Below are positions 12,035-23,834 of a DNA stretch of 23,834 nt, piece by piece. The notes under the pieces were generated by a model. The model saw only the letters and a list, made by a program, of their open reading frames with translations. It ran no database searches and was not told the DNA's origin. Every line of letters starts with the position of its first letter. The first letter of the stretch is position 1. The translations under genes and the position numbers were made by a program. This DNA is from a virus. Location of the stretch: positions 1 to 23,834 of the IMG/VR virus record IMGVR_UViG_3300010354_000659; one strand, 5' to 3'.

Positions 12035-12249
12035 TTCCGCGGCCTCCTAGTCTGCCGATCCACGGCTCGCTCGACCTCTGGCTGGCGGGCGGCCTCCTCG
12101 ACGACCGGCGGCTGCGTGGCTGTCTTCGCCGGTTCTGGGATCGGCTCGATCATGCCGCGGGCCACGAGCAGGCGTGCCATGCCGTCGGACCAGTCGAACT
12201 CCTGGCCTTCCTTGTAGACGCCGAAGTTGCGAACGACGCGAATTCTCAT
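12031..12249 (-). CDS. Small hypothetical phage protein in the connector cluster
   Basis: The start ATG 12249 overlaps the upstream TGA (ATGA), giving 72 residues (MRIRVVRNFGVYKEGQEFDW). The N-terminal 45 residues look folded, with a strand, a VYKEGQEFDWSDGMARLLVARGMIEPI element, and then a charged, Pro-rich tail ending TRRPRK. The pattern 'strand, G-x-x-F, then helix with LxxRGxxE' occurs in many tiny head-region phage proteins of unknown function. It could be a small connector accessory protein. No motif allows more. Confidence 0.7.
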   Translation of the reverse strand: MRIRVVRNFGVYKEGQEFDWSDGMARLLVARGMIEPIPEPAKTATQPPVVEEAARQPEVERAVDRQTRRPRK

Positions 12250-12974
12250 GCGACGAACCCCCACGCATCCTTGGGCGCCTGCTGGCCGCCATTCCAATAC
12301 TCGGTCGTGTGCTGCTGCACCTTGCCGCCCTCGACGCTCCGGCTGGGCCAAGTGATCATCAGTTCGGCATGGCCGACGCTGACGTGCGTCGCGATTCCTA
12401 GCGTGTTTCCTGCCTTCTCCCACGCCCGCCAGAACGCGATGTCCTCATCGACGTGGCCGCCGGAGAACTCGCCGTCCTCGTTGGCCCTGGCGAGGAACCA
12501 CGGCTTCGGCACCTTCTTGAGGGCGTCGCATCGCAGAAACGTGCAGCCGAAGTGAGCCGTGGCGACCCGCTGGACTGGCTTCTTGAACCAGTCCTCATCC
12601 ACATTCGTCTGCTGCTCAGGCGTCATGCCTGGGAGAGCGAACATGACCGCGTTCGCCTCACGCTTGGTCTGGAGCGGGGCGATCGCGTCCACGCCGGAGT
12701 GCATGAGCAGGGCGAGCAGGGCTTCGATCGACTTCGAGGTGAAGATGGTGTCGTAGTCGAAGGTGAGGATCACGTCGTGCGTATCCACGACGGTTTCCAT
12801 CGACCTCTGGAGGCATTGCCCCCAGAACGCGCCGGTGTACTTGATCGGAGAAATGCGGTGCGGCGCGAGAGCCTGCGCCACGCAGAAGAAATTATCAGTG
12901 AAGCCGAGGCGAGGCGTGCTCATGAGAGCAGCGACCTTCACCTCGGCTTCCACGTTGCCGATGCGAAGTAGCAT
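12246..12974 (-). CDS. GT-A-like glycosyltransferase
   Basis: This 242-residue protein contains VILTFDYDTIFTSKSIEALL, an aspartate-rich motif DYD at residues 73-75 that matches the metal- and nucleotide-sugar-binding DxD of GT-A enzymes. Later HVDEDIAFWRAWEKAGN (residues about 180-200) gives the acidic pair of the acceptor half. HVSVGH is a possible third metal ligand. The N-terminal strand VKVAALMSTPRLG fits the first Rossmann strand. There is no membrane segment. It would transfer a sugar to an unknown acceptor in the cytoplasm. It sits between capsid and connector genes and has its own AGGAG nine bases before ATG 12974, so virion glycosylation is a natural hypothesis. Host glycan modification is the alternative. 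Confidence 0.8.
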   Translation of the reverse strand: MLLRIGNVEAEVKVAALMSTPRLGFTDNFFCVAQALAPHRISPIKYTGAFWGQCLQRSMETVVDTHDVILTFDYDTIFTSKSIEALLALLMHSGVDAIAPLQTKREANAVMFALPGMTPEQQTNVDEDWFKKPVQRVATAHFGCTFLRCDALKKVPKPWFLARANEDGEFSGGHVDEDIAFWRAWEKAGNTLGIATHVSVGHAELMITWPSRSVEGGKVQQHTTEYWNGGQQAPKDAWGFVA

Positions 12975-16928: not shown

Positions 16929-18576
16929 CGCTTTCCTCCTCGAAATGCGCCTCGAACCACCGTTCGGTGGCCGTTTCGTAGGGTTTTCCGCTCCTGTGGC
17001 ACTCCAACAGCAGGTCTTTCGACCTCATCAGCCACGTAGCCACGAACGAATCAATGTCTCGGTGAGCAGCCTTTGCTGCGTCGCACAGTTCGGCACGCAG
17101 TCTTTCCTCAACTTGGCCGAACCATTGCGTGATTTTCTCCGGCTTCGACCGCCGCGAGAGGATTCCTTCTGCTTCGACGGCAGCGATACGTCGCAGTGCA
17201 GTGCGAAAGACGACTTCGGCGGGGTCGAGGTCGCGGTTTTCGGCGTCTCCGGCGTCCTCGCCGGCCTCATTTCCCGCTCCTTCTTCCGGTTCTTGAGGCT
17301 GCTCCTCGGCCGGGAGGCTTTCGGGCGTCGCTGCTTGTTGCTGGCCTGTCGGATTCTCAATCGTGAAGGCTTCCAAGAGTTGCATATTGACCTGCACAAA
17401 CCGCTTTTTGCCCAATCCGTCGGGCAGCGGGTTGTATCCGATCTCCGCGCGGTACTCGTCCACGTCGATGGCGCCGTTATTGAACGCCTCGCGGAGGTAC
17501 GTCGAGCGTGCGGCGTAGTCGCCGGCCATGAACGAGTTCATGTCGAAGCCGACGAAGTAGTTCCTGTCGTCGGTCACGAGGTCTCGGCGACACGCCAACT
17601 CCCACCGCCGGCACCACGGCATGAGGCTGAAGGTCTTGTAGTCGATCGCCGCCTGCTCGACCGTGCTATGCCTGACGTTGGACAGGTCGCCGACCATGTG
17701 GGCCGGCACGCGGTAGCATCGAGCCACCTCCTGCAACTGGAAGAGGCGTGTCTCGACCAGGGCGTTGTCGCGGTTGTTGACCGGATCGTTCTTCTTCTTG
17801 AATCCGAACGGCATGACCACGGTTTTGTAGTGGTTGGCTGGGCCGCGATGGGCCTCGTCCCACTGCTGGCGGAACCGCTGGAGAGCCTCCGGCTTGTGGG
17901 GCTGATCGAGTTCGATGTAGGTGCCGGCAATAGCGCCGTTGCCAAAGAACGCCGAGGAGTGCAGTTCGGTGGCGCGGGCGAGGCCGATCGCCTCCCTGGA
18001 GAGCGTCGTCGGCACGTAGCCTCGAACACCGTCTGAACTGAGCCAGCGAAGGTGAAAAATCTCTTCCTGCCGGTACTCTTCAGGCTCTGGGTTCGGGTCG
18101 GCGATCGTGCTCGGCGAGCGGTAGTAGTAGCGGAGTTTGCCGTTTTCGAGCCGCTTTACCTCCATCCGCGATGGATGCAGCGGGATCAGTTCGTCTACGG
18201 CTCCGCGGCGGATGCTGCCCTTGATGTGGGCGTAGGCATTCCCCCACAGAAGCAACCACGACTGCATGAGTTCCTTGAACTCAAAACTCGTCATCCATGA
18301 GTTGGGCTGGTAGGCCAGAATCTCGTGGAGCGGCTGGTCGTCGGCGATTTCCTTGCCGCCGGCCGGCAGTCGCCGGTACAGGTTCGTCGGCATCGCCGCG
18401 ATCGACTCCGACAGGAGCCGGACGCAGGCGAGGACGGCGGAGCACTGCAGCGCCGTCTCCGGCGAGACCGAGACGCCGGCGACGGAGTTGCGGTCCTCCA
18501 TCAACTCCTCGAAGACCCGCGACAGGGACGCGGATCGGAGTTCAGCCATGCCGGTGTAGGGAATTTCGTCCGCCAT
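16921..18576 (-). CDS. Phage portal protein, HK97 family
   Basis: The 551 residues show the HK97 portal pattern: SVSPETALQCSAVLACVRLLSESIA near the start, YQPNSWMTSFEFKELMQSWLLLWGNAYAH, then IPLHPSRMEVKR. Further on come IFHLRWLS, LARATELHSSAFFGNGA, YRVPAHMVGDLSNVRHSTVEQ (the conserved 'P..l.g..~' segment) and YLREAFNNGAIDVDEYRAEIGYNPLP. The dodecameric ring is the DNA gateway of the head and docks terminase. A C-terminal tail of about 150 residues (Gln/Glu-rich, then helical) is longer than in the prototype. The start forms TAATG with the terminase stop, and its end overlaps the protease start. Confidence 0.95.
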   Translation of the reverse strand: MADEIPYTGMAELRSASLSRVFEELMEDRNSVAGVSVSPETALQCSAVLACVRLLSESIAAMPTNLYRRLPAGGKEIADDQPLHEILAYQPNSWMTSFEFKELMQSWLLLWGNAYAHIKGSIRRGAVDELIPLHPSRMEVKRLENGKLRYYYRSPSTIADPNPEPEEYRQEEIFHLRWLSSDGVRGYVPTTLSREAIGLARATELHSSAFFGNGAIAGTYIELDQPHKPEALQRFRQQWDEAHRGPANHYKTVVMPFGFKKKNDPVNNRDNALVETRLFQLQEVARCYRVPAHMVGDLSNVRHSTVEQAAIDYKTFSLMPWCRRWELACRRDLVTDDRNYFVGFDMNSFMAGDYAARSTYLREAFNNGAIDVDEYRAEIGYNPLPDGLGKKRFVQVNMQLLEAFTIENPTGQQQAATPESLPAEEQPQEPEEGAGNEAGEDAGDAENRDLDPAEVVFRTALRRIAAVEAEGILSRRSKPEKITQWFGQVEERLRAELCDAAKAAHRDIDSFVATWLMRSKDLLLECHRSGKPYETATERWFEAHFEEESDG

Positions 18577-20096
18577 TAGAAGACCAGCAGTTGCGGCTCC
18601 TCGTCAGGCCCGCGGGCCTCGCCGGCCGAGATGCCCAAGGCCATGATGAGCGCGACGGCGGCGTCGATGCGGGCGGTGCTTTTGGACTGGCTTTTCGTGG
18701 GCTTGATGTTCCCGGCGTCGTCTGTTTTCACCTGAAGGTTCGACATCTGAAGAACGAGCGCCGGGTTTCCGCCGTGCCTTATCCGCCTGCCAAGAACAAG
18801 CGCCTCGAGCAGTTTCGTGGCGTGGCTCATCGAGGCGTAGCCTTGCCCGTATGGCTTGACGTCTATGCCCTCCGACATCAATTGCGTCGTTATGTGCACT
18901 GCGTTCCATCGATCGATGGCTACGCCGCGAACTGCGTTTCTCTCGCAAAACGCGAGCACGTAGTTCCTGACCACGTCGTAATCCACGACATTTCCATCAC
19001 TGATTGTACAGAAACCATCCTTGGCCCATTGGCGATACGGAGCCTCGTCGCGATCGGCGTTCTCTTCCGGAATGAAAATGTGGGCAAAGGCGTCGAAGGT
19101 CCCGTCAGGGACTCCGTCGTCGTCCGTTCCAGGCCACACGGCGGCAAAAGCGGTCGTATCGCTGGTGCTAGACAGGTCGAGGCCGCAGTAGCACGGCCGG
19201 CTGTCGGCCGGACGGAGAGGCTCGTTGCACGCCTCAAAAAGCCCGGTGCGAAAGAAACGATTCGCTCCGTTGCTGACCCATTGGTTCAGGTAGAGCGTCC
19301 TGAATTTGATCTCTTGGGCCACGCTCTCTCTGGCGAGGGCGGCTTCTCGCTCCATGAACTCCTTCCTGACGGTGATCCCGTAGTTCGGCTGGGCTTTCCG
19401 CCACGTCGCCTCCGAGAACGGGTCGTCGTCGGGGTCGGCCGCGTAGATGCACGGCAGGAACGTCGGGTCGTCGAGCAGACCTTCCTGAATCTTCAGCGCC
19501 CGCTGCCACTCGTCGTAGCAGGGGCCGACGCGGTCCATGCCGGCCGTCGTGATGTAGATGACAAGCGGCTCGTCTCTGGCGCCCATGCCGGACTCTAGGA
19601 CATCGATCAAGTCCCGGTTCTTTTGGACATGGAGTTCGTCGATGATCACGACCGATGGGTTGAAGCCGTGTTTGCCTTTGTGCTCACTGGAGAGAAACTG
19701 GATCGTCGACTTGTTGTGAGGCATGACGATCGACTGCTTGTATATCTTGCACCGCTTGAGCAAGCCGGGGCATGACTCGATGTACCTGGAGCACGCCGTG
19801 AACAGGAGGCTGGCCTGCTTGCGGTCGCCGGCCGCAATGAGAATCTGGCCGCCCTCGGCCCCGAAGAAGCCTTCGTATGCGCCGATCACGGCGCTCAAGG
19901 CGGTCTTTCCCTGCTTTCTCGGCAGAGCCAGCATGGATCGCTGGTACTGCCTGCGGCCGTCTTCGCGCTTCGTATTGAAGAGCCTGTCCAAGTAATCGTC
20001 TTGCCAAGGCTCCGGCACGAAAGGCTGGCCCGAGAACGGCGCCTCGGTGTGCTTTAGAAGCCGAGCGAAGTCGCGTATGTCAACCCGACGCGGCAT
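18576..20096 (-). CDS. Terminase large subunit (HK97/Terminase_1 type)
   Basis: ATG 20096 gives 506 residues (MPRRVDIRDFARLLKHTEAP). The frame extends upstream but would then overlap the small subunit for 71 bases. ATPase: Walker A-like PRKQGKTA at 59-66 and Walker B VVIIDELH at 149-156, with the coupling motif YITTAG at 181-186. Nuclease: CGLDLSSTSDTTAFA (Asp307), VAIDRWNA (Asp395) and a C-terminal ARIDAAVAL Asp, as in RNase H-fold terminases. The enzyme packages DNA through the portal and cuts concatemers. The start overlaps the last 17 bases of the small terminase gene. The sequence is intact and all key residues are present. Confidence 0.95.
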   Translation of the reverse strand: MPRRVDIRDFARLLKHTEAPFSGQPFVPEPWQDDYLDRLFNTKREDGRRQYQRSMLALPRKQGKTALSAVIGAYEGFFGAEGGQILIAAGDRKQASLLFTACSRYIESCPGLLKRCKIYKQSIVMPHNKSTIQFLSSEHKGKHGFNPSVVIIDELHVQKNRDLIDVLESGMGARDEPLVIYITTAGMDRVGPCYDEWQRALKIQEGLLDDPTFLPCIYAADPDDDPFSEATWRKAQPNYGITVRKEFMEREAALARESVAQEIKFRTLYLNQWVSNGANRFFRTGLFEACNEPLRPADSRPCYCGLDLSSTSDTTAFAAVWPGTDDDGVPDGTFDAFAHIFIPEENADRDEAPYRQWAKDGFCTISDGNVVDYDVVRNYVLAFCERNAVRGVAIDRWNAVHITTQLMSEGIDVKPYGQGYASMSHATKLLEALVLGRRIRHGGNPALVLQMSNLQVKTDDAGNIKPTKSQSKSTARIDAAVALIMALGISAGEARGPDEEPQLLVF

Positions 20097-20565
20097 TATC
20101 GAACAGCGCATCCACGGGGTCGGCGACAACCTTGACGGCGCCGTACCCAAGGCGGGTTCGATCTGCCGGCGTTAGCCCCAGAACCGTTTCAAGGTGTCTG
20201 AGTTGCTCGCCAGATTCCTTGGCTTGCGTTGCCATAGCGGACGCTCGAGAGAACCGAATTTCGCCGCTGGCATTCAATACTTCGACGTGCGTTGCGTCAA
20301 CATTCTGCAGTTGCCGCGCTGCGTACTCCCACTGGCAGTACACCACGCAGTATCTGGTCACGACATGTTCGTCCGTCTCGGCGAGGGTGCCCATTTTGGT
20401 CAACCAGTCGACGAGCCTGAGGAAAATTTCTTGCCCTCGAGGCTTGAGCCACGCTGGCGGGCGCATTGGCTCAGACGGCTTTATGCCGAGTTCCTCCCTG
20501 TCGTTGGCTCTTTTTGAGCCAACGATCTGGAGGACGTGCTTCGGCTTCGGCGGCCTTCCCTTCAT
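20080..20565 (-). CDS. Terminase small subunit, P27 family
   Basis: I take ATG 20565 (161 residues, MKGRPPKPKHVLQIVGSKRA), because P27-type small terminases typically begin M+GR+PKP. The following PPAWLKPRGQEIFLRLVDWL, DEHVVTRYCVVYCQWEYAARQL and C-terminal ESGEQLRHLETVLGLTPADRTRL are family hallmarks. The protein recognises the packaging site on phage DNA. The frame stays open to 20814, and ATG 20691 is an alternative start. Neither site has a recognisable ribosome-binding sequence, so a short-leader or leaderless transcript is possible. It opens the late operon, with the repeat array just upstream. Confidence 0.88.
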   Translation of the reverse strand: MKGRPPKPKHVLQIVGSKRANDREELGIKPSEPMRPPAWLKPRGQEIFLRLVDWLTKMGTLAETDEHVVTRYCVVYCQWEYAARQLQNVDATHVEVLNASGEIRFSRASAMATQAKESGEQLRHLETVLGLTPADRTRLGYGAVKVVADPVDALFDNAASG

Positions 20566-20611
20566 GTCGTACAGAATACAAGTCAAGGGATTGCTGGTGC
20601 AAAGGAGTGCG

Positions 20612-20640
20612 TTGACTGGGTCGCTTCCGCTGGATATCGT
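20612..20640 (+). promoter_or_regulatory. Weak sigma70-like promoter element facing the array
   Basis: TTGACT at 20612-20617 (5 of 6 consensus bases), a 17-base spacer and TATCGT at 20635-20640 (4 of 6). A transcript would run antisense to any terminase leader and through the repeat array. It is only a sequence match and could be chance. Confidence 0.25.
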
Positions 20641-20775
20641 TGTCTCCCAAAGCCGCATTTCGCGTGCGATTTCGATGCGTTCGGCAGCCATGACTAAGCG
20701 GCCATTCATAGTCGGCCTGCAAACGGTCCATTTTCGGGCCCGTGCCTGACCCCGTGGCGTGCGGTCTGCCGCCGA

Positions 20776-20812
20776 GGACCCCCCCAGCGGCGGCCCCCCC
20801 TTCGGGGGGTCC
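20776..20812. other. Two competing hairpins built on C and G runs
   Basis: GGACCCCCC (20776-20784) can pair with GGGGGGTCC (20804-20812) as a 9-bp stem. Alternatively CCCCCC (20795-20800) pairs with GGGGGG (20804-20809) across TTC, or as a C(UUCG)G tetraloop. Both use the same G run, so they exclude each other. A further run of seven G begins at 20821. No U-tract follows that would make this a standard terminator. Confidence 0.55.
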
Positions 20813-20836
20813 ATGCTTTTGGGGGGGATCGGCGGC

Positions 20837-21243
20837 CTCGAGGGGCGGCGCCCTGGTCGACGTCGGCGGGCTCGAGCACGGCGCCCAGGTCGACGCCGGC
20901 GGGCTCGAGGGCCGGCGCCCTGGTCGACGCCGGCGGGCTCGAGGGGCGGCGCCCTGGTCGACGTCGGCGGGCTCGAGGGGCGGCGCCCTGGTCGACGTCG
21001 GCGGGCTCGAGGGGCGGCGCCCTGGTCGACGCCGGCGGGCTCGAGGGCCGGCGCCCTGGTCGACGTCGGCGGGCTCGAGGGCCGGCGCCCAGGTCGACGC
21101 CGGCGGGCTCGAGGGCCGGCGCCCTGGTCGACGTCGGCGGGCTCGAGGGCCGGCGCCCTGGTCGACGTCGGCGGGCTCGAGGGCCGGCGCCCTGGTCGAC
21201 GCCGGCGGGCTCGAGGGCCGGCGCCCTGGTCGACGTCGGCGGG
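20837..21243. repeat. 34-bp tandem repeat array 1, twelve units
   Basis: Twelve head-to-tail units start at 20837, 20871, 20904, 20938, 20972, 21006, 21040, 21074, 21108, 21142, 21176 and 21210, each beginning ctcgag. All are 34 bp except the second (33 bp, with cac for ggcc or gggc). Each unit carries the palindromes CTCGAG, GGCGCC and GTCGAC and ends ggcggg. Differences fall at three places: gggc/ggcc, cctgg/ccagg and acgtcgg/acgccgg. There are no spacers, so this is not CRISPR. The period is not a multiple of three, so frames through it are not a protein repeat. Units break off at 21244 (ctcgattgc). The same unit recurs at the right edge. Confidence 0.95.
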
Positions 21244-21319
21244 CTCGATTGCAAAATACCAAGTGTCTCACACAACATACGGGAACGTGCGGCCGGTCCA
21301 CCACAAGATATAGCCCAAC

Positions 21320-21349
21320 TTGACACGACGCCACGTCATGACCGATAGT
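21320..21349 (+). promoter_or_regulatory. Sigma70-like promoter of the ATPase/VWA operon
   Basis: A perfect TTGACA at 21320-21325, an 18-base spacer and GATAGT (4 of 6) at 21344-21349. It lies between the end of the array and the ATPase ribosome site, pointing right. The leader would be about 70 bases. It is the best promoter-like element in the window but is a sequence match only. Confidence 0.45.
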
Positions 21350-21429
21350 CCTCGTGCCGGAACGACGCTCGACGCCGACAGCCGCACAAGCGGCGGGCGA
21401 TCGACGCGACCGGCGAGGAGGTTGTGGTC

Positions 21430-22140
21430 ATGGCGCAGATCGAAACGTGGACGGTCATCGATGCGGTGCTCGCGGTGGACGGTCCACACGCTCTTCTCTA
21501 CGGTCCGCCGGGGACCGGAAAGAGTTTCGCGGGGCAGCGGTCCGGGGACGTGTCGCGTGGCGTCTATAACGTGACGATCACGCCCGACACGCCAGCCGCG
21601 GAACTGCGCGGTCACTACGTGCCGCGCGGCGGAGAGTTTCAGTGGCAGGATGGCCCGATGGTCCGCGCGATGCGGGAGGGTGCGCGGCTCGTGCTCAACG
21701 AAATCGATCACGCCGGCGGCGACGTGTTGTCGCTGTCGCTGGCGTGCCTCGATTCGCGGGAATCGTGCGCCGTCACGCTCCCGACAGGCGAGACGGTTCG
21801 GCCTGCGGCAGGCTTCCGCGTGGTCGCAACCATGAACGGGAAGCCCGACGACCTGCTCCCGGCGCTGCGCGATCGGTTCGGCGTCGCGCTCGAGGTTGAC
21901 GCGCCGCATCCGGCAGCGTTCGACGCGCTGCCGGATGACCTGCAGCCGGCGGCGCGCGGTTCGAGCGTGGCGACCGGGGACGACCGCGTGTCGCTCCGCT
22001 CGTGGCTCGCGTTCGCGGAGTTGCGGCGCGCGGTCGGTCCGGAGATTGCCGCGCAGAGCGTGTTCGGCGCATCGTGGCGCGCGGTGCTCGATTCGCTCGC
22101 GGTCGCGGCGCCGGCGCACGCCGGCCGGCGGTCGCGCTGA
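21430..22140 (+). CDS. MoxR/CobS-like AAA+ ATPase (AAA_5 type)
   Basis: I choose ATG 21430 because AGGAGG lies eight bases upstream, whereas the GTG at 21424 is only two bases from it. The protein has 236 residues: Walker A GPPGTGKS at 25-32, TPAAELRGHYV and FQWQDGPMVRAMREGARLVLNEIDHA at 54-95, sensor-1 ATMNG at 133-137, and arginine-finger LRDRFG at about 146-151. The order and the 'F.w.dGpmvrAm+eG' signature are those of MoxR/CobS-type ATPases, which remodel partner complexes. Asn90 replaces the first acidic Walker B residue, possibly a subfamily trait. The VWA/peptidase gene 115 bases downstream is the natural partner. Composition looks more G+C-rich than the phage genes. Confidence 0.85.
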   Translation: MAQIETWTVIDAVLAVDGPHALLYGPPGTGKSFAGQRSGDVSRGVYNVTITPDTPAAELRGHYVPRGGEFQWQDGPMVRAMREGARLVLNEIDHAGGDVLSLSLACLDSRESCAVTLPTGETVRPAAGFRVVATMNGKPDDLLPALRDRFGVALEVDAPHPAAFDALPDDLQPAARGSSVATGDDRVSLRSWLAFAELRRAVGPEIAAQSVFGASWRAVLDSLAVAAPAHAGRRSR

Positions 22141-22161
22141 CGCGCTGACGATCCGCCGCAC

Positions 22162-22188
22162 CCCCCCGCGCGCCCGCGGCGCGGGGGG
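22162..22188. other. Strong GC hairpin between ATPase and VWA genes
   Basis: CCCCCCGCGC (22162-22171) and GCGCGGGGGG (22179-22188) form a perfect 10-bp stem with a 7-base loop, 21 bases after the ATPase stop. No U-tract follows, so full termination is unlikely. It may protect the upstream mRNA from decay or set the ratio of the two proteins. Confidence 0.6.
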
Positions 22189-22255
22189 CGACGGCGCATC
22201 GTGGCGCGTGCCGCGGCGCGGTTCTAGTTCGGTGACACGACGAGGAGGGTGGAGT

Positions 22256-23533
22256 ATGTTTTCCCAGACTGGGCAGGATCGACCGATCCCGGCGGCAATC
22301 GACGGGCGACCGTGGACGGTCCACCGGATCGACGCCGGCGGCGGAACGGACGTGAAGCGCGCCGTGATGCAAGTCGAGACGTCCGACACGCCGACGGCGC
22401 GATTGATTCGAATTCACGAACTGGCGCACGCTCGCGCGACGCCGCGCGTGAGCCCGGACGACGAGGCTCGCAAGGCCGGCGTGTCGCTCGAAGCGCTGCA
22501 GTGGTCGGAAGACGCGAGGATCGGCGCGTTCGGCGCTGCGCACGCTCTGTGGCCGGAAGACGCGATGGTCGACGCGGACTGCGACCGACTCGTGTCGGCG
22601 CGGAAGAGCGATGAACGCGCGCTCGCCGGCGCTCTGCTCGCGTGTTCGGACATGCCGGAGCCGATCGTGGACCGACTGTGTGCCGCGATGGAGCGGGCAG
22701 GGGTTCCGCGATCGTGGATCGGCGCCGCCCGCGACACGGTTTCCGACATGGTCGAGGCGGCATGGTGCGGCGCTGCGCCGCGCCGCGGTCGCGCGGGGCG
22801 CGGCGGGGGCCGTCGCCGGATGGTCGCGCAATCGATCGAGAGGTACGCGGGGGAGCACGACGGATTCCGGCGCTTCACCCTGCCGCTCGCGCGGCTGTTC
22901 GACGCTGCGTTCCCGCCGGGGGGCGGCGCGCCGCGCGGCGGAAGGACACTCCCGCCGGAGGCGCTCCGCCGAATCCGCTCGTGGCCGAAACTGCTCGACA
23001 TCCGCGAGCCCGCGCGGACCGAAACGGTTCGGCGCCGGCGGGCTCCGGCGCGCCGCTGGTCGGACTGCGGCGCGGTGCCGCTGGGTTGGCACAGACTGCC
23101 GTCGGACGGGACCGTTTTCGGGACGCGCCGCCGCGCTCGAGGCGGGACGATTCTGTGCGACGCGAGCGGGTCGATGGAGTATTCCGACGACGACCTCCGG
23201 CGCATCATGACGATCGCGCCGGCCGCGACGGTGGCTTTCTATTCCGGCTCGGCGGATGGCGGGCATCTAGTGGTGGCGGTCCGCGACGGTCGCGCCGCGA
23301 GCCTGCGGAGCGTGCGCGACGGGCTGGCGGGGTTGGGCGGCAACTGCGTCGACCTCCCGGCGCTTCAGTGGCTCGCGCGACAGCCGGCGCCGCGCTTCTG
23401 GGTGACCGATGAGGAGGTTGGGTGCTCATCGACTGTCGGTTTCGGGCGGGGCTCGCTCTCGTGGCAGGAATGCCGCACGGCGGCGACCGCGGCCGGGGTC
23501 ACGATCGTCGAGACGATCGACCGGATTCGGTGA
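22256..23533 (+). CDS. VWA-domain protein with HELAH metallopeptidase motif (DUF2201/CobT-like)
   Basis: ATG 22256 follows AGGAGG by eight bases and gives 425 residues. Near the N-terminus RLIRIHELAHA supplies a zinc-peptidase HExxH (His54, Glu55, His58). WSEDARI (Glu85-Asp86) could give the third ligand. A middle region (residues about 165-275) is Arg-rich and poorly conserved in appearance. The C-terminal third is a VWA-like domain: TILCDASGSM gives the MIDAS DxSxS (Asp302, Ser304, Ser306), LGGNCVDLPAL the central position and FWVTDEE (Asp385) the final acid. This two-part design resembles DUF2201/CobT-type partners of MoxR/CobS ATPases. The product is probably cytoplasmic: no signal peptide or membrane segment is seen. 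The target is unknown. Confidence 0.8.
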   Translation: MFSQTGQDRPIPAAIDGRPWTVHRIDAGGGTDVKRAVMQVETSDTPTARLIRIHELAHARATPRVSPDDEARKAGVSLEALQWSEDARIGAFGAAHALWPEDAMVDADCDRLVSARKSDERALAGALLACSDMPEPIVDRLCAAMERAGVPRSWIGAARDTVSDMVEAAWCGAAPRRGRAGRGGGRRRMVAQSIERYAGEHDGFRRFTLPLARLFDAAFPPGGGAPRGGRTLPPEALRRIRSWPKLLDIREPARTETVRRRRAPARRWSDCGAVPLGWHRLPSDGTVFGTRRRARGGTILCDASGSMEYSDDDLRRIMTIAPAATVAFYSGSADGGHLVVAVRDGRAASLRSVRDGLAGLGGNCVDLPALQWLARQPAPRFWVTDEEVGCSSTVGFGRGSLSWQECRTAATAAGVTIVETIDRIR

Positions 23534-23558
23534 CGACGCGGGGACGTTGACCGACACG

Positions 23559-23591
23559 CCGGCCGGCGCTCGAGAGGGCGCCGGCCGGTTT
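23559..23591 (+). terminator. Intrinsic terminator of the ATPase/VWA operon
   Basis: CCGGCCGGCGC (23559-23569) pairs perfectly with GCGCCGGCCGG (23578-23588) as an 11-bp stem with an 8-base loop, followed directly by TTT. It lies 25 bases after the VWA stop. The short T-tract is compensated by the strong stem. The loop contains CTCGAG-like bases (tcgagagg), recalling the array unit. Confidence 0.7.
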
Positions 23592-23609
23592 CGTGCGCGG
23601 ACCGCGCTC

Positions 23610-23834
23610 GCCCTGGTCGACGTCGGCGGCCTCGAGGGCCGGCGCCCCAGGTCGACGCCGGCGGCCTCGAGGGCCGGCGCCCCAGGTCGACGCCGGCGGC
23701 CTCGAGGGCCGGCGCCCTGGTCGACGTCGGCGGGCTCGAGGGCCGGCGCCCTGGTCGACGTCGGCGGGCTCGAGGGCCGGCGCCCTGGTCGACGTCGGCG
23801 GGCTCGAGGGCCGGCGCCCTGGTCGACGCCGGCG
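23610..23834. repeat. 34/35-bp tandem repeat array 2, runs off the right edge
   Basis: A partial unit (about 23610-23630) is followed by units starting at 23631, 23666, 23701, 23735, 23769 and 23803, the last cut by the window edge. The first two are 35 bp (an extra c in the ccccagg segment); the next three are 34 bp and identical to units in array 1. Together the two arrays bracket the ATPase/VWA operon in the same orientation. The stretch from 23534 otherwise holds only the terminator. Confidence 0.95.

Follow-up and report, generated by a model that had tools for sequence, protein, structure and literature searches.

This account concerns a compact operon that an uncultured tailed phage carries next to its terminase genes, enclosed by two tandem arrays of one and the same repeat unit. 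The locus lies at one end of the IMG/VR virus record IMGVR_UViG_3300010354_000659, the whole of which (23,834 bases) was analysed and is called the window here. Positions 1–20,814 hold, on the minus strand, a structural block of tail genes, capsid, protease, portal and the terminase genes TerL and TerS. Beyond it, two plus-strand open reading frames (ORFs) stand between the arrays, one for a MoxR-type ATPase (AAA_5) and a second for a protein with an HExxH motif and a vWA domain (Table 1). The original prediction, made from the window alone, had suggested that this unit could be cargo moved by recombination between the arrays. The reading that we consider probable is that the pair occupies an accessory slot beside cos in a clade of cos-type siphophages, bracketed by direct arrays that are specific to each phage. 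What the sequences show directly is the anatomy of the slot, its cos-like end, the differences in cargo and the rarity of strong non-coding arrays outside it.

Occupants of the locus in related phages

In relatives the slot holds a GP88 gene, a Cys-rich gene, or the MoxR-vWA pair facing the other way. By TerL, the nearest relatives of the window are L234 (97% identical), L235–L238 (87%) and L239–L241 (81–82%). Where the assembly continues past cos, a Cys-rich gene without Pfam match was found in L235 (87%) and a GP88 gene in L241 (81%), both directed away from TerS like the operon of the window. In L129 (60% TerL identity) the genes also point away from TerS, and a 34-bp array stands at the contig end. 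Members of the GP88 or Cys-rich family were encountered at this spot in 15 examined loci, falling into two sequence clusters of 11 and four. To judge from these comparisons the locus beside cos is variable, its occupant differing between close relatives, and the cargo idea is upheld in the sense of a variable site, since Cys-rich and GP88 genes stand there in relatives with 81–87% TerL identity.

The same idea gains support from two related lineages in which a GP88 gene lies between two arrays of the same unit. Contig G019 is circularly closed (72,419 bp; its ends overlap by 32 identical bases) and leads from TerS through cos, roughly two copies of a 34-bp unit and a stretch of genes with GP88 among them to 12.7 copies of that unit on the same strand. 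In L267, with a 60-bp unit, and in L243, whose unit is related to the one in G019, a single unit likewise stands on both sides and on the same strand. No MoxR or vWA match was obtained in 40 records of the clade, contigs of 70, 72, 69.6 and 74.5 kb among them; the vWA query had matched nine of ten records in an earlier run, and the MoxR query was used without such a control. G019 is the cleanest negative for the pair. In four near-complete contigs strong arrays were located at the slot; the few exceptions, in the tail-gene region or close to it, have periods (33 and 87 bp) divisible by three.

As a separate observation, a motif resembling CCCCGAACGTGGAAAC recurs in several repeats just past the outer array of G019, G013, G027 and G029; it may be a regulator or a replication site.

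The tandem arrays and the genome end

The two arrays of the window are 94–96% identical and lie on the same strand, so that their earlier description as direct arrays of one unit stands, with the start of array 1 corrected to 20829. At a period of 34 the self-identity of array 1 amounts to 0.89 against 0.36 in shuffled sequences (maximum 0.43, n = 200), which is far beyond chance. The length given for array 2 is a minimum because it reaches the contig end. Periods of 17 and 34 bp in relatives had suggested that the unit might be a dimer of a 17-bp repeat; for the window this was rejected (period-17 identity 0.16).

An exact-pattern search of 2.9 million viral contigs for the 34-bp unit matched one other contig, the sister L003, which matches the window at 99.8% identity along 7.5 kb of structural genes and breaks off within the TerS-side array. 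The first five unit variants of its array agree with those of array 1 and the later ones differ; the array is therefore variable, or was assembled differently. Since this rare unit adjoins the TerS side and either flank of the cassette, a chimera with an unrelated phage is very improbable, and the cassette is in all likelihood part of this phage's own genome. A dispersed repeat family was likewise rejected, given the single further contig with the unit and the position of strong non-coding arrays at the slot in near-complete contigs.

The earlier account of the region has to be amended by a cos-like site between TerS and array 1. At the matching position, after G-runs, relatives show CGGCAGACCGCA(C/T)GC or a near variant. 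Contigs L022 and L025 terminate exactly at ...CGGCAGAC, and L202, from the metagenome that also yielded L025, begins at CCGGCAGACC. Of 74 contigs with TerL, 23 have their first base within 700 bases of this gene and lack the motif, which places their start just 3' of it. Contig ends at one fixed sequence upstream of TerS fit ends of the cos type.

Relatives carrying the MoxR-vWA pair

From viral contigs, 107 MoxR-vWA relatives were confirmed. Nine related contigs possess the pair (L004, L005, L006, L007, L020, L021, L024, L025, L092), their MoxR being 62–70% identical to that of the window (L092 lacks this part) and their vWA protein 41–45%; L148 and L309 have a partial vWA gene only. The association of the two genes with flanking arrays, for which the original prediction had proposed to search related phages, thus recurs in these contigs: arrays flank the pair on both sides, with units that vary from phage to phage and from one side to the other. 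L092 nearly duplicates L004 (98–99.7% identical) but has a different array, suggesting that arrays change quickly.

The order MoxR, vWA, array, cos, TerS, TerL is found on one strand in G001, G004 and G007 (in G009 from vWA on), and the other pair-bearing contigs end in or just past the array downstream of vWA. In every contig that reaches far enough the pair adjoins cos, the cassette lying between array and cos. Strong arrays occur almost solely at the two flanks of the pair in six contigs (G002–G007), and both ends of G004 (58.9 kb) lie in one array. Origin from a host gene or a prophage found no support: in one GTDB scan covering 84,980 genomes of bacteria and archaea, the matches listed were distant MoxR proteins (at most 34% identity).

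Three side observations concern these cassettes. L004, L007, L023, L025 and L092 share a conserved non-coding element (approximately TAGGATTGCGCAGGAAGSCCGATC) in the interval from the vWA terminator to the array; a weaker form occurs in L022, and none was found in the window. The outer arrays upstream of MoxR in G002–G004 and G006 share a 17-bp theme (ACGGGTCTTTG) that the inner arrays do not. MoxR is preceded in L004, L007 and L024, though not in the window, by a small ORF whose acidic tail has IG(E/R) as its last residues.

The two proteins and their operon

The compact two-gene operon beside the terminase, as originally described, was recovered with a promoter-like site, MoxR, a metallopeptidase-like vWA gene and a terminator-like hairpin. 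As the hairpin of the window has only three T, it was recognised by its likeness to those of relatives with T-runs. The assignment of the MoxR core is, on the matches obtained, secure: AAA_5 scored 77.7 bits against a cut-off of 22, and GPPGTGK and LNE[IV]DH are conserved. Its best relatives by sequence in the PDB are midasin, NorQ (3.8e-17) and CbbQ; the structure model was poor (pLDDT, the predicted local distance difference test, 62) and was excluded from use. With the PF20030 bpMoxR model 20.3 bits were reached against a cut-off of 27, so that the protein was not assigned to the bpMoxR ternary conflict system.

The 425-aa protein encoded downstream has no match in Pfam, NCBIfam or solved structures. 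Besides its two motifs, E79, E85 and D86, 20–30 residues past HExxH, are invariant in all nine aligned vWA proteins. In the AlphaFold model (mean pLDDT 76) HExxH is situated in a helix following a small sheet, which is consistent with a zincin but short of proof. A fold search with this model gave no PDB match at E<=0.001; the best viral match was an unnamed 451-aa protein (E=1.2e-11), and NorQD matched weakly (prob 0.30). At distant viral MoxR loci a vWA gene, defined by a strict MIDAS motif, lies directly downstream in 50 of 72. HExxH is present in all nine close sequences and in none of these 50, so that the peptidase-like domain is, within the sampled set, a feature of this clade. Isolate phages yielded no vWA protein of this kind at E<=1e-5 with the window protein as query, or at E<=1 with that of a relative.

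The richer G+C content that had been noticed was confirmed by measurement (0.70–0.74 in the cassette against about 0.62 in the phage block), but it fails as a sign of foreignness, since cassettes of relatives are likewise G+C-rich and the G+C content at third codon positions (GC3) follows that of the TerL of each phage (MoxR/vWA against TerL 0.76/0.74 and 0.76, 0.75/0.73 and 0.75, 0.82/0.83 and 0.79). In the window GC3 is 0.84 in both cassette genes, between TerL (0.79) and capsid (0.87), and a recent foreign origin on grounds of composition was rejected.

Table 1. Coordinates of features in the window and the evidence for each.
Feature	Position	Strand	Evidence
TerL	18576..20093	-	Pfam TerL_nuclease 3.7e-35, TerL_ATPase 1.1e-24; PHROG 9
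TerS, start codon uncertain	20080..20694	-	Pfam Terminase_4 1.4e-13; PHROG 83 2.2e-25
cos-like genome-end element CGGCAGACCGCACGC	20757..20771	-	Conserved upstream of TerS in relatives; contig ends
G/C-run and hairpin element between cos-like site and array 1	20773..20828		G-runs here in relatives; hairpin 20792-20811
Array 1, 12.4 copies of 34-bp unit, variant order ABCDDBEBFFBG	20829..21248	+	Tandem Repeats Finder (TRF): 94% matches, score 735
CCAAGTGTC, conserved upstream of MoxR in relatives	21259..21267	+	Read in L004, L007, L024 and window
Promoter-like TTGACA-18-GATAGT	21320..21349	+	Consensus match only; 2 found against 0.0 expected in shuffles
MoxR-type AAA+ ATPase, 236 aa, alternative GTG start 21424	21430..22140	+	Pfam AAA_5 E=1.2e-21
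425-aa protein, N-terminal HExxH metallopeptidase-like part, C-terminal vWA	22256..23533	+	Motifs; 9-sequence alignment; AlphaFold
HELAH (HExxH) motif codons	22415..22429	+	HExxH invariant in 9/9 aligned sequences
DASGSM MIDAS motif codons	23159..23176	+	D-x-SGSM invariant in 9/9 aligned sequences
Terminator-like hairpin 3' of vWA gene, only three T	23559..23588	+	Similar hairpins with T-runs in L007, L022
Array 2, at least 6.6 copies of the array 1 unit	23609..23834	+	TRF: 95% matches, score 378

Some features of the structural block may be added. A 1,455-aa protein has a position like that of a tape measure. Within 18576-20694, L234 and the window differ sharply in conservation, with TerL 97% (and portal 96%) identical and TerS just 69%, which marks a mosaic boundary between the terminase genes. 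A 12-bp repeat in ten perfect copies (677-796) lies within an ORF of the tail region and encodes a Ser/Glu-rich stretch. Beside the capsid region, a glycosyltransferase-like gene (12246-12974) is 73–94% identical across the clade, exceeding the conservation of TerL in several phages.

Explanations of the locus

If the locus is an accessory slot, direct arrays would make it prone to recombination, with changes in copy number and possible loss of cargo, and matching units on both sides could have arisen from insertion of cargo into one array or from gene conversion. Because the units differ between phages, the arrays are not a shared landing sequence and offer no homology between different phages. 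Going further, phage-specific arrays, formed anew in every lineage and kept alike on the two flanks, might make this genome-end locus a hotspot of cargo turnover in a large environmental clade; this extension is possible but doubtful.

Several points weigh against the slot reading. Four contigs (G013, G027, G043, G049) end at arrays, so that the missing cassette could sit in the gap. Most slots are without matching arrays on both sides, in part because contigs break in arrays, and array periods vary from 12 to 70 bp. Phages of the clade at about 53% TerL identity have a cassette directed towards TerS and two unlike arrays; bracketing by a single unit is thus not universal. Movement by recombination between arrays may occur, as was proposed: different cargo was found at the slot, but neither an empty site, with one array and no cassette, nor a recombinant junction was found among relatives, and the units differ between phages. 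For the zinc site and peptidase activity the basis consists of motifs and a moderate model, without a convincing fold match in the PDB.

As to the function of the cargo, MoxR-vWA systems have been reviewed (PMC7159879), and by analogy with them the vWA domain would bind a client via its MIDAS motif, the MoxR ring would remodel it with ATP and the zincin-like HExxH domain would clip it. The client appears somewhat more likely to be host-side or conditional than an essential part of the virion, since relatives with 81–97% TerL and 88–94% capsid identity seem to manage without the pair. A narrower host-side version, compatible with the slot explanation, makes the cargo a counter-defence or anti-host module; it agrees with the accessory distribution, with the replacement of cargo at one site and with the recurrence of MoxR-vWA pairs in conflict systems (PMC7159879), but is considered rather unlikely. 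Against it, no PADLOC model was usably matched over most of its length, and the link to defence that had been suggested could not be tied to a known system: the lone match, to IetA (E=0.0015), covers residues 21-37 in one of the relatives and is a Walker-motif fragment.

That the pair serves virion maturation, with MoxR and the vWA-metallopeptidase assembling structural proteins and processing them, and that the non-coding repeats beside cos are incidental, seems improbable here. Such a role was proposed for MoxR/metallopeptidase-vWA pairs in group 2.2 jumbo phages (PMC7824862), the MoxR-type ATPase p618 and vWA protein p892 of Acidianus two-tailed virus (ATV) act in tail development (PMC4124505), and the pair of relatives lies just upstream of TerS-TerL-portal and is codirectional with them. 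Yet relatives with 80–97% identical TerL and portal hold other genes at the site, or no copy was found in them; in L033 an exonuclease gene comes after the pair, which is encoded on the opposite strand to the terminase, and the pair of the window is read away from the structural genes with its own promoter-like site. Another candidate role is that of CobS/CobT-like cobaltochelatase subunits that boost host cobalamin synthesis: MoxR matches PHROG 249 (porphyrin biosynthesis) at 3.6e-22 as well as cyanophage CobS, and viral CobST was proposed to use host CobN (PMC8651126). Against this role, the NCBIfam cobaltochelatase model TIGR02442 reached 18 bits with a cut-off of 779, the vWA protein lacks any NCBIfam match and the nearest PDB sequences are those named above. 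An HExxH part is not expected in CobT. A ribonucleotide reductase large-chain domain was not found in nine related records. A cobalt-chelatase role is thus less likely, and we rank it lowest.

Assembly, finally, might have created the layout if the true order were MoxR-vWA-array-cos-TerS and TerS had been joined to MoxR through the repeat. Every contig of the clade at about 53% TerL identity that holds vWA and TerL has the cassette facing TerS, contigs break in these arrays, and the divergence from L003 after five units would agree with such an error; from the first relatives an inversion of the window by misassembly had in fact been suggested, which was revised in view of G019, L235 and L241. 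Array 1 by cos and array 2 by vWA are on the same strand, so that the artefact needs a flip of orientation inside one array, and the three array junctions would each be shorter than the read length. Slot genes of the nearest relatives are directed away from TerS, and G019 has the same layout independently. Misassembled orientation is therefore unlikely.

Relation to known systems and significance

The nearest small MoxR relatives with solved structure belong to the NorQ-NorD and CbbQ-CbbO activases, which are cellular activators of metal enzymes and are not known to have an HExxH domain. Phage morons and right-end accessory genes have their own promoter and terminator and are replaced between relatives; the slot described here differs in being bracketed by phage-specific direct tandem arrays beside cos. 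The protein pair itself, MoxR with a metallopeptidase-like vWA partner, appears to be of a kind already known: by description, it resembles the group 2.2 jumbo-phage pair, where a MoxR AAA+ protein adjoins a vWA protein fused to an N-terminal metallopeptidase (PMC7824862), but here it is found in phages of about 59–75 kb, at the genome end by cos and between tandem arrays. Cyanophage and haloarchaeal viral cobST (PMC8651126) are similar in that an AAA+ ATPase lies by a vWA protein with MIDAS and the CobS PHROG matches MoxR; they differ in location, CobS of cyanophage S-WAM2 lying among replication genes, and in that the HExxH domain was seen solely in the close clade of the window. The p618/p892 pair of ATV (PMC4124505), likened by description as a viral MoxR ATPase with a vWA partner, belongs to an archaeal virus and is without a peptidase domain (PMC7824862). 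For a cos-proximal slot bracketed by phage-specific direct arrays no description was found in a narrow literature search.

With this phage, a pair apparently of the jumbo-phage kind is recorded beyond those phages. Near relatives of the phage seem to be without it; an essential role in virion assembly is accordingly less likely, and the function can be put to the test. The stretch between cos and the outer array offers a defined place in which accessory genes can be sought in many uncultured phages, and as short-read assemblies break there, cargo of the slot is probably under-reported. It also raises the question why a short stretch beside cos grows lineage-specific repeats on both sides of its cargo. 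If the hotspot interpretation were true, cargo would be gained and lost at this slot in genomes that are otherwise almost free of non-coding arrays.

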